From NCBI GenBank assembly GCA_029262515.1, contig JAJCZH010000012.1:1-50999 (forward strand): a stretch of 50,999 nt of DNA, read 5' to 3'. The position numbers were made by a program, and so were the translations under genes. Source of the DNA: Deltaproteobacteria bacterium (GTDB lineage Bacteria > Desulfobacterota > GWC2-55-46 > JADFVP01). Every line of letters starts with the position of its first letter. Within the stretch, counting starts at the first letter, position 1. The notes beneath the pieces were generated by a model. The model ran no database searches. It saw only the letters and a program-made list of their open reading frames with translations, and was not told the origin of the DNA. Below, piece by piece: positions 9,498-26,791 of this stretch.

Positions 9498-11531
9498 TCA
9501 GGTTTTATTATGTGCTGTTTTAGACTCACCCAGGCGCCATGACTTATCAAGAAATTTCTCAACCTCAACCGGTGGGCCGGGTTTTGATATCAGGTAACCC
9601 TGTATATTACCGCAGTGGTGGTGTTGGAGAAGTTTCAGCTGAGCCTCTGTTTCAACTCCCTCAGCTATGATCTCAAGGTTGAGGCTCTGTCCCATACTTA
9701 TGATAGCCGTAACTATTGCCTCGTCATTTGCATCTATCGTTATGTCTCTCACGAAGCCTTGATCGATCTTAAGTACATCTATGGGCATTAACTTCAGGTA
9801 GGTAAGAGATGAGTATCCCGTTCCGAAGTCGTCAATGGAAAGCCTTACACCTAAATCCTTGAGCACCGAGAGTCTCTCTATGGTTTCCGTTGCATTTTCC
9901 ATTAAGAGGCTTTCTGTGAGTTCAAGCTCCAGGTTTGCGGGATCAATTCCGGTTTCACCTATAACATCGGCTACGAAATTAATAAAGTTTTTCTGCCTGA
10001 ACTGCTGCATAGAGATGTTGACACTCATCCTGATATTTTTAAGCCCCTGATCCTGCCAGGCCTTTGCCTGGATGCATGCTGTGCGCAGTACCCATTCCCC
10101 TATCGGAATTATAAGTCCGGTCTCCTCGGCTATGGGGATAAACTCCCCGGGGCTTATAAGCCCGGTTTCCGGTTCCTGCCAGCGTATGAGCGCCTCCATT
10201 CCGACTATCTCTCCGGTTGTGATCTTCACTTGCGGCTGGTAATAGAGCACGAACTCATTCTGCGCTACCGCTTTGTGAAGCTTATGCTCCAGTTTGACCC
10301 ATTCAGCCCCAATCACGCTCATTTCCGACTCATAGAACTTACAATTGTTTCTTCCGGCGCTCTTTGCATTATACATGGCGGTATCGGCATTCTTTAGAAG
10401 TGCCTCAGGTGTCTCTCCGCCATTAGGATACATGCTGACCCCGATGCTTGTGGTAACCTTCAGGTTATGGCCCTGAAGCGTTACCGTGGTATCGAAAACG
10501 GAGAACAACCTCTTAACCACCTTTAGAACATCGTCCTCTCCTTTAACACTAGTCAGGAGTATAACAAACTCGTCTCCACCGAGACGGGCAACGGTATCGC
10601 CGGGACGAACACAAGACTTGAGCCTGATAGCTATTTCTTTTAGAAACTCATCACCAAAATCGTGCCCGAGAGTGTCGTTAATAAATTTGAACCGATCCAA
10701 ATCTAGAAAGAGAATCGCCGTCATAACTTTCTGCCGATTCAAAGTCGCTATAGTCTGCTCCAGGCGATCCAGTAGAAGGCGCCTGTTGGGAAGCCCGGTG
10801 AGGATATCGTGGTGCGCCATAAAGAAAATCTCGTCTTCAGATTTCTTTTTATCGGTAATATCTGTAACAATAACGAGTGCACCTGTCTCTACCTTCTCAT
10901 CTTGCAGTATTCGTGTCACATTTACCTGAAGGTACATTATTTCGGTCCCGACCTTGTGCTGAAGGACTTTCTCCTCTATAAGTGAATCTTCGCCAAGAGC
11001 GGCCGAGATCATCTGCTCAACCTCGGGAAAAGGGAGAACTTCTGATACGGGCATGCCGGTCGGGTCTGCTTCCAGAGAAAAGATACTGATGAAGGCAGGG
11101 TTTGCAGACAAGATCGTAAGGTCGCTTGATATGGACAGCAGTCCGGAATGTACGCTCTGCACTATATTATCGGCATACGCCTTTAGTGCCATATTCTCTG
11201 CGTACGCCTCGGCCTTGAGTTCATTCTCCATGGCGACCTGAGCTTTTTCAGCCTCAACCTCAATGCGTCGCGTAACCACCTTTATTACCAGCAGGTACAG
11301 GAAGGGTGAGCTTATTACCGACAGCAGGACCGAATCAGCAAGGAACTCCAGTATCACAGTCTCAATGTCGAGCAGCCAGAGCAGACCCATCACAAAGAAC
11401 TCTGTGACAAAGATTATACCGAGGATCCTTATAAAGATAATGAAAGGTTTTCCTGCTGCGGACTCCAAGCTCTTGGAGTGCAGGAGTGGCGCATCAATAT
11501 TTTCTCTACTGTTTGTGCCTGCAAGCGGCAT
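9498..11531 (-). CDS. Membrane PAS-GGDEF-EAL protein (c-di-GMP synthesis/breakdown)
   Basis: 677 residues. Two N-terminal membrane helices (about 30-54 and 65-86), a short coiled coil, a PAS domain (about 118-228), GGDEF (about 235-400) and EAL (about 415-665). The diguanylate cyclase signature G-G-D-E-F (318-322) is intact, and R309-x2-D312 five residues before it is a product-inhibition I-site. The EAL side keeps E446 in M-E-A-L-I-R, E-L-T-E, D-D-F-G-T-G, L-K-I-D and A-E-G-V-E. Both activities are therefore possible; which dominates cannot be told. The membrane part resembles that of the hybrid kinase at 39618-42680. The nearest gene upstream on the same strand encodes a PilZ protein, a possible c-di-GMP receptor. 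Confidence 0.93.
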
Positions 11532-17477: not shown

Positions 17478-17837
17478 ATGAACAAGCTGAGCTGTCCGAG
17501 ATGTTCAAATCCATTTTTTACGGCTGCGCGGGAGATAAAGATGCCTTGCCCGTATTGCGGTTACGAGGTTAAGGTAGAAGACTCGGAGAGAAGAGATCTC
17601 GGAAGAGAGACTGTTCAAAAGGGTTGTGATATTCTAAAAGGTGAAGTCAGCGTTCCGGTTCGCACCGTAGATTTGTCTACCACAGGTGTCGGTATCAAGA
17701 TGAAGGGCTACCTTCCGTTCGATACCAATGATACGGTAGACGTGCAGTGTGCAGGGCTTGATATTGCAAAAAAGGCACGCGTAGTCTGGACAAAGAAGTT
17801 TTACGGATTGTCGAGGGCAGGCTTAATGTTCTGCTGA
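17478..17837 (+). CDS. PilZ-domain protein with N-terminal zinc ribbon
   Basis: A 119-residue protein. The N-terminus is a zinc ribbon: C6-P-R-C9 and C24-P-Y-C27. A PilZ-type domain follows, with R39-x3-R43 and D65-L-S-T-T-G70, the c-di-GMP-binding pair, then a beta-barrel-like remainder that ends at F-C. A near-consensus promoter lies upstream and a strong terminator downstream, so it is a single-gene transcript. Zinc ribbons often mediate nucleic acid or protein contact; here they may couple c-di-GMP to a partner, which is inference. The start ATG follows GAGGAAC closely. Confidence 0.82.
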   Translation: MNKLSCPRCSNPFFTAAREIKMPCPYCGYEVKVEDSERRDLGRETVQKGCDILKGEVSVPVRTVDLSTTGVGIKMKGYLPFDTNDTVDVQCAGLDIAKKARVVWTKKFYGLSRAGLMFC

Positions 17838-24963: not shown

Positions 24964-25205
24964 TTCGGCCGGAGTTACGTTGATCTACTCCTCTGAACGT
25001 GTTTACTCTTATGTCTTTTACGCCATTTGAGTTAAGGAGTACTTCCTGTACTAAACACCGTTACGACCAATTGCAGGGTGCAACATTTGAACCTGTAATT
25101 GGTAACGTTAAGGGATTGACGGAACTATAGTGTCAGGAGTACAGTCTTGCCTGACAGACTGCTTAAAGATTTAACAACCTTACTCATCCATAGAAGAGAA
25201 TAGAT

Positions 25206-26375
25206 ATGATAGAAACCAAAATACAATTGAAAGACTTGGTAGCAGCACTAAAAAATAGCGAGTTTGTATACTATTACCAACCAAAAGTTTCTATGGTTAC
25301 AGGTGAATTAAGCGGTGCAGAAGCTTTGATCCGTTGGAAAAAACCTGATGGCACAATTATACCGCCATGCGAATTCATTCCACTAGCAGAGTCTTCCGGG
25401 TTCATTAATGAGATAACACTTTCGATGTTCCAACAGCTCATTGTAGACATGAGTATTATTCATGACCTAAATGATTCACTTGTCATATCGTTCAACGCCT
25501 CCGCAAAAGACTTTGTCAATAATAAATTAACGGAGGTGATTCGCAACAGCATCACTAATAAATTAATTGTTCCAGATAGGCTGGAAGTGGAGCTTACGGA
25601 GACCGCAATCCTTAAAACAAAAGGTGTTGAGGTCTATTTGCGTCAGCTTGAAAATATAGGTGTCCACATCGCAATGGATGACTTCGGCACAGGGTTTTCA
25701 AGTATTGACATGCTGTCACAGTTACCATTTTCTTGTGTCAAAATAGACCAAGGTGTTGTCAGTAGAATGGAAGATTCAGATAAGGACTTTTCTATAGTTG
25801 AGTCGAGTATTAGAATGGTGCATGATCTGGATCTCACAGTAGTCGCAGAGGGTATAGAGACAGAAAGAACTTACAAGATTCTCGTTGATATGGGTTGTTC
25901 TGTTGGTCAAGGGTATTGGATGAGTCGCCCTTTACCATTACATGAATTTATTAATCTCGTTGTGTTGAAGAGACAATGGCCAACATCAACGAGGGGGTTG
26001 TTGTGCATGGCGCAACTTGATCATATGAAGTGGCGGAAGGCAATCATAGACGGCGCTTCTTTTTTGATCTCCAGGAAAGGTAAGAATACAGCCCTTAGGG
26101 GGGCGCCGGAGCTAGACTCAAGTGCATGTCGTTTAGGAAAATGGTATTATGGACAAGGGAGAAAGTTCTCTGGAACTAAGCATTACGATGCACTCGAAGA
26201 ACCTCATAGGTGTCTGTATCAAGCAGGTATGGAACTCCTAGAATATGCAAAGAGTGGGGCTTCGAAAAAGGAACTAATATTATATATGCGTAAAGTCAGC
26301 GAGCAATCTATCATTGTAATTAATCTTTTGCACGAGTTAGAAAAAGAGCTATTCCTAATTGATGACTTCGATTAA
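25206..26375 (+). CDS. EAL c-di-GMP phosphodiesterase fused to a CZB (zinc-binding) domain
   Basis: 389 residues. An EAL domain starts at once (about 8-250), with no GGDEF: E39 in A-E-A-L-I-R, N97, E129, D158-D159 in D-D-F-G-T-G, K179 in V-K-I-D, E215 in A-E-G-I-E and Q235. All catalytic and metal residues are present, so it should break c-di-GMP. Residues about 260-385 match the chemoreceptor zinc-binding domain: H273 in L-D-H-M-K-W, C308 in C-R-L-G-K-W-Y-Y and H334 in P-H-R-C-L-Y. The usual fourth ligand His is Tyr338. CZB domains sense zinc or oxidants through Zn-Cys chemistry (DgcZ is the GGDEF example). Base use is clearly more AT-rich than the neighbours. A DUF302 gene follows 29 nt later. 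Confidence 0.9.
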   Translation: MIETKIQLKDLVAALKNSEFVYYYQPKVSMVTGELSGAEALIRWKKPDGTIIPPCEFIPLAESSGFINEITLSMFQQLIVDMSIIHDLNDSLVISFNASAKDFVNNKLTEVIRNSITNKLIVPDRLEVELTETAILKTKGVEVYLRQLENIGVHIAMDDFGTGFSSIDMLSQLPFSCVKIDQGVVSRMEDSDKDFSIVESSIRMVHDLDLTVVAEGIETERTYKILVDMGCSVGQGYWMSRPLPLHEFINLVVLKRQWPTSTRGLLCMAQLDHMKWRKAIIDGASFLISRKGKNTALRGAPELDSSACRLGKWYYGQGRKFSGTKHYDALEEPHRCLYQAGMELLEYAKSGASKKELILYMRKVSEQSIIVINLLHELEKELFLIDDFD

Positions 26376-26404
26376 CCGTGAAAACGTTTTTAGTGGAGGT
26401 ACGT

Positions 26405-26791
26405 ATGAAGTATTATTTCAGCAAGTCTTTTGAAGGGTCGTTTGATGAGGCTATTGCCAAGGTTACGGAGTGCCTCAAAGAGGAAGGCTTTGGTATTCTT
26501 ACCGAGATAGACGTGAAGGAGACTTTGAAGAAGAAACTGGATGCGGACTTCCGTAAATATAGAATTCTTGGAGCGTGTAACCCAGCCTTTGCCTATAAGG
26601 CATTACAGGCTGAAGCTCACATAGGTCTTATGTTGCCATGTAATGTTATTGTTCAGGAAATGGATAATGGTACCGTAGAGGTAGCGGCTATTGATCCGGC
26701 AGCATCTATGCAGGCCATTGAGAACCCTGCACTTGCTGACATAGCCACTACAGTTAGAGAGAAGATGAAGGCTGTAGTTGACAACCTGTAA
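26405..26791 (+). CDS. DUF302 family protein
   Basis: 128 residues; the start is set at the ATG at 26405 because GGAGGT lies 4 nt upstream and the DUF302 core begins with Y-Y-F-S-K-S-F-x-G-S-F-D-E-A. Later motifs are G-A-C-N-P-A-F-A-Y-K-A-L and L-P-C-N-V-I-V-Q-E, each with a Cys (Cys58, Cys79), and V-A-A-I-D-P at about 96. The fold is known, the function is not. Base use is closer to the host than that of the EAL-CZB gene. The 29-bp spacing and shared direction make an operon with the EAL-CZB gene likely. Confidence 0.88.
   Translation: MKYYFSKSFEGSFDEAIAKVTECLKEEGFGILTEIDVKETLKKKLDADFRKYRILGACNPAFAYKALQAEAHIGLMLPCNVIVQEMDNGTVEVAAIDPAASMQAIENPALADIATTVREKMKAVVDNL

Follow-up and report, generated by a model that had tools for sequence, protein, structure and literature searches.

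The stretch of DNA that we analyzed (the window; 50,999 nucleotides of contig JAJCZH010000012.1, assembly GCA_029262515.1, Deltaproteobacteria bacterium) contains a gene that joins an EAL domain to a CZB domain, followed by a gene for a DUF302 protein (Table 1); do these genes specify a zinc- or redox-gated c-di-GMP module, as an earlier sequence-only reading had proposed? Both genes are real, that is, Pfam matches over the cut-off confirm the EAL-CZB gene and its DUF302 neighbor. They share the + strand with the genes on either side, which we take from their translations to be ftsK-lolA-yajQ-prmA-rsmE (upstream) and dnaK-dnaJ-clpA-like genes (downstream). The explanation that we favor, and consider probable as a whole, is that the locus encodes an acquired c-di-GMP phosphodiesterase, that the metal site of its CZB domain is weakened or altered, and that the DUF302 gene is an unrelated neighbor.

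Table 1. Features of the EAL-CZB locus (window coordinates).
Feature	Position	Strand	Description	Basis
Inverted repeat upstream of EAL-CZB	25131..25156	+	TGTCAGG-N12-CCTGACA	Sequence; kept in the truncated second copy
EAL-CZB gene	25206..26375	+	389 aa; EAL residues 10-242, CZB about residues 264-384	Pfam PF00563 and PF13682, full-length homolog alignment, predicted fold
Catalytic EAL residue span	25320..25913	+	E39 to Q235	Nine identical in window protein and 16 homologs
CZB ligand 1 codon	26022..26024	+	H273 (DgcZ H22)	Profile alignment to 3t9o; invariant
CZB ligand 2 codon	26127..26129	+	C308 (DgcZ C52)	Profile alignment to 3t9o; invariant
CZB ligand 3 codon	26205..26207	+	H334 (DgcZ H79)	Profile alignment to 3t9o; invariant
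Codon at the place of ligand 4	26217..26219	+	TAT, Y338 (DgcZ H83)	His in 16/16 homologs
DUF302 gene	26405..26791	+	128 aa, ATG start, GTGGAGG upstream; probably not a functional part	PF03625

The EAL domain is matched over residues 10–242 (PF00563; E=9.8e-61, 205.6 bits against a cut-off of 31.3; Pfam search). All nine of the EAL residues that were checked are present (E39, N97, E129, D158, D159, K179, E215, E218, and Q235), and these positions are identical across 17 sequences, that is, the window protein and its 16 homologs; their catalytic and metal-binding roles are those generally known for EAL enzymes. The domains present and the intact catalytic residues thus support the proposed joining of a complete catalytic EAL domain to a CZB domain, and with it the assignment of the protein as a putative phosphodiesterase fused to CZB. 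The genome also encodes 22 GGDEF and 15 PilZ domains, so the organism uses c-di-GMP and has both substrate and effectors. Two members of this large c-di-GMP set lie elsewhere in the window: a GGDEF-EAL gene (9498–11531, − strand) and a PilZ domain (17592–17831, + strand).

Ten full-length EAL-CZB homologs, 40–49% identical to the window protein, were collected from a scan of genome contigs; the closest are from Sulfuricella, Methylomonas, a Chromatiaceae MAG, and similar Beta/Gammaproteobacteria. Six further homologs were obtained from 151 and 150 genomes representing the orders of two of these ten, in which the occurrence of EAL-CZB is patchy (6/151 and 4/150 genomes, including ones already known). 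One homolog, L025 of the Chromatiaceae MAG, has the architecture PAS-GGDEF-EAL-CZB. The neighboring genes vary: a NIT-HAMP-MCP chemoreceptor gene precedes EAL-CZB in the Sulfuricella-type locus L017 (2950–4947; domains read from L017), and a gene 89% identical to it does so in L018 (2945–4969); a PAS-GGDEF-EAL gene is the neighbor in L019 and L020; and the neighbors in Methylomonas are unrelated. Across the homolog loci read, no conserved partner other than DUF302, which is considered below, was found. The architecture itself is already catalogued and not new: EAL-CZB is among the seven architecture groups published for CZB proteins and accounts for 3.4% of 10,140 CZB proteins (Perkins et al., 2021; PMC8262984), that is, for hundreds of proteins in the 2021 census, and GGDEF-EAL-CZB proteins have been reported in Acidithiobacillus (PMC6416229). 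The literature searched held no biochemical study or activity data for any EAL-CZB protein. The contrast that had been drawn with DgcZ, a synthase where this protein would be a phosphodiesterase, is correct as far as characterized proteins go.

The match to the CZB family (PF13682; E=3.1e-8, 34.3 bits against a curated cut-off of 29.4; residues 299–342; Pfam search) is partial: it covers profile positions 27–61 of 64, whereas the homologs match positions 1–63 or 1–64. The AlphaFold2 model consists of an EAL fold and a helical bundle (mean pLDDT: 81 overall, 85 in the CZB part). In Foldseek, the single domain closest to the bundle is the MID of DosC (4zvc; best E 8.9e-3), and superposition on the CZB domain of DgcZ (3t9o_B) gives a Z of 10.1 and an rmsd of 2.9 over 112 residues; the scores of other helical bundles are as high or higher, and fold matches of helical bundles are weakly specific. 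The model therefore speaks for a CZB-like bundle but is no proof of one.

The metal ligands were located by aligning a profile built from the CZB parts of the proteins to the DgcZ CZB domain (3t9o; E=0.0043), a weak alignment that nevertheless places all four. The 3His/1Cys motif has been called ubiquitous in CZB domains (PMC8262984); the CZB domain in the window departs from this set, keeping H273, C308, and H334 and having Y338 as the fourth residue. In the 17 aligned sequences, the fourth position is His in all 16 homologs and Tyr only in the window protein. In a small sample of intact CZB stretches from the same phylum, no Tyr occurs at this place and the latter His of the HxxxH pair is also retained. 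Because a defining ligand is changed, which the earlier reading had not noted, we class the protein as a variant within EAL-CZB and not with the standard zinc-binding CZB proteins. Residue 267 (window 26004–26006), six residues before the ligand H273, is Cys in the window protein and His in 15 of the 16 homologs (Ser in the remaining one), and another cysteine, Cys336, is close in sequence to Y338. The change from His to Tyr at 338 amounts to a single C-to-T transition in one assembly, the sole sequence for this lineage, and could be an assembly error. Tyr is able to ligate zinc in some proteins.

What do these substitutions mean for the proposed zinc or redox gate? Three of the four ligands are retained; because the fourth is Tyr here and His in 16/16 homologs, the case for the gate is weakened for the window copy. 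The sequence gives no warrant for assuming canonical 3His/1Cys zinc/HOCl gating in this copy, and its metal binding may be weaker, altered, or absent. We consider it unlikely that the canonical gate operates nonetheless, that is, that zinc is held by H273, C308, H334, and either Tyr338 or water, and that zinc or Cys oxidation switches the phosphodiesterase as in DgcZ. The three kept ligands and the conserved Trp276, which the window protein also retains, are consistent with such a gate, as are the different activities of zinc-free and zinc-bound DgcZ (PMC8262984) and the direct inhibition by zinc of a Vibrio cholerae phosphodiesterase, ZpdA, for which no CZB domain is claimed (PMC12607878); however, the window protein is the only one of 17 in which ligand 4 is replaced, and it has also exchanged the nearby, near-invariant His267 for Cys. 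Alternatively, Tyr338, with Cys267 and Cys336 nearby in sequence, might mark a CZB domain whose specificity has shifted to a different metal or to redox sensing directly by thiols, such that a non-zinc signal gates the phosphodiesterase; we regard this as very unlikely.

The second gene is a clear member of the DUF302 family (PF03625; E=1.3e-27, 95.9 bits against a cut-off of 23; Pfam search). As had been read from the sequence, it likely starts 29 nt after the EAL-CZB stop codon, at the ATG at 26405, behind a strong ribosome site (GTGGAGG), and encodes 128 aa; a longer ORF from the GTG at 26378 is the less likely candidate, since the DNA resembles the homolog in a genome of the same genus (G002) only from 26394 onward. 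The protein contains three cysteines (23, 58, and 79), not the two (58 and 79) that had been counted. Cys58 and Cys79 lie in motifs common to the solved DUF302 proteins 1j3m and 1q9u, so these residues are not special to the present locus and argue against a dedicated partnership.

Genome context also bears on whether DUF302 could be a redox or metal partner of the phosphodiesterase in a functional module. The 29-nt spacing, the common strand, and the good ribosome site would suit such a module, as would the composition of the two genes, both of which are AT-rich relative to their neighbors, so that a joint arrival is possible. The proposed test of co-occurrence across genomes gives a different picture: none of the 16 EAL-CZB loci had DUF302 in the flanks read (5–7 kb on each side, less at contig ends), that is, there is no conserved neighborhood. 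DUF302 genes are present in the genomes of seven of the first ten homologs, and a family search located none of them at the EAL-CZB loci. In the converse direction, the surroundings (about 1.5 kb on each side) of 19 DUF302 genes in relatives contained no EAL-CZB-like gene. In the nearest relatives the two genes are apart or absent. G002 carries an 89% identical DUF302 at another locus, where it adjoins the gene for an AI-2E family transporter, and the EAL-CZB search found no full-length EAL-CZB in that genome; in a genome of the same family (G003), rsmE and dnaK are about 400 bp apart with neither EAL-CZB nor DUF302 between them; and in a second genome of the same genus (G001), the approximately 520 bp between rsmE and the contig end contain no EAL-CZB match. 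(In Sedimenticola, a relative with an EAL domain and no CZB domain, L085, has a DUF302 gene about 3.5 kb away; we take this as chance.) DUF302 is therefore rejected as a conserved partner, and a functional module of the two genes is highly improbable. The DUF302 gene would instead be an independent gene that most likely lies downstream of EAL-CZB by chance; co-transcription of the two in this one organism is possible, and on present evidence the pairing is of no importance.

The EAL-CZB gene looks foreign and horizontally gained. Its third-position GC (GC3) of 0.393 is the lowest of the 34 genes in the window (the others range from 0.526 to 0.699). Of 297 genomes sampled in the phylum, 95 contain the CZB family, which was not found in the sampled members of the gene's own order or class; the CZB domain in the window is the only one in its genome. 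The same genome contains a 200-bp stretch (G000:C15:3723-3921; L135) that is 85.6% identical to window 25128–25324, that is, to the upstream region and first codons of the gene; this second copy is truncated and frameshifted and then gives way to unrelated sequence, and the gene that adjoins it is presumably a Crp/Fnr-like regulator. Together, the GC3, the absence of CZB from the sampled class relatives, the closest homologs in Beta/Gammaproteobacteria, and the truncated second copy point to a horizontal gain with loss of the second copy; we infer the direction and the donor of the transfer. Carriage by a plasmid or phage was considered and rejected, as the matches were of low identity or confined to the EAL part.

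A foreign gene may also be a decaying one, in which selection has lapsed and the CZB ligand was lost as a result. The foreign composition, the reduction of the second copy to a frameshifted fragment, and 14 positions at which the first ten homologs agree and the window protein differs would fit decay, but the reading frame is open at full length, every catalytic residue checked is kept, and the CZB part is still 32–47% identical to those of the homologs; we therefore find decay distinctly unlikely.

The region in front of the gene has features of its own. The leader (25040–25205) has a predicted folding energy of −44 kcal/mol (z −3.2; 0/200 shuffles fold as well) and contains two inverted repeats, including TGTCAGG-N12-CCTGACA. 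The latter was considered as a genome-wide operator or the end of a mobile element and discarded, because it occurs at only two places in its own genome, both of them EAL-CZB copies. No match to Rfam or a known RNA family was found near the EAL-CZB and DUF302 genes, and promoter and terminator scans at the locus did not rise above shuffles.

In the mechanism that we prefer, a gene for a soluble EAL-CZB c-di-GMP phosphodiesterase would have been acquired horizontally and inserted between rsmE and dnaK. Its EAL domain, judging from the intact catalytic residues, would hydrolyze c-di-GMP; by analogy with DgcZ and with the biology of EAL proteins, the C-terminal CZB four-helix bundle would serve as a dimerization and regulatory domain on the EAL dimer. 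With Tyr as the fourth ligand, metal binding is probably weaker or altered, and the response to zinc or oxidant may be reduced or changed; for the same reason, it is doubtful that this copy shows canonical inhibition by femtomolar zinc or HOCl switching through Cys-Zn. The window protein is thus a natural metal-site variant, for which the 16 His-bearing homologs are the right controls. If CZB also lets zinc or oxidant inhibit phosphodiesterases, c-di-GMP would respond in the opposite direction to that found for DgcZ.

Among known systems, the published EAL-CZB class (PMC8262984), found mainly in Proteobacteria, shares the order of an EAL domain and a C-terminal CZB domain with no other domain; the window protein differs in having Tyr at one of the four ligands and in coming from a genome whose relatives sampled in the same class lack CZB. 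The Protoglobin/PAS-GGDEF-EAL-CZB proteins of Acidithiobacillus (PMC6416229) and L025 also place CZB directly after EAL at the C-terminus, whereas the window protein has neither a GGDEF domain nor an N-terminal sensor domain. In ZpdA of V. cholerae, the activity of a c-di-GMP phosphodiesterase is lowered by zinc; however, what has been described there is transcriptional control by Zur and regulation of the purified protein (PMC12607878). The middle domain of Escherichia coli DosC (PDB 4zvc) is also a helical bundle in a c-di-GMP enzyme, but in the profile alignment it is without the CZB Cys, whereas the window protein keeps three of the four ligands. Finally, E. coli DgcZ (CZB-GGDEF; PDB 3t9o/4h54) likewise carries its CZB domain on a c-di-GMP enzyme, with H22, C52, and H79 corresponding to H273, C308, and H334; in contrast, DgcZ makes c-di-GMP, its CZB domain is N-terminal, and it keeps H83 where the window protein has Tyr.
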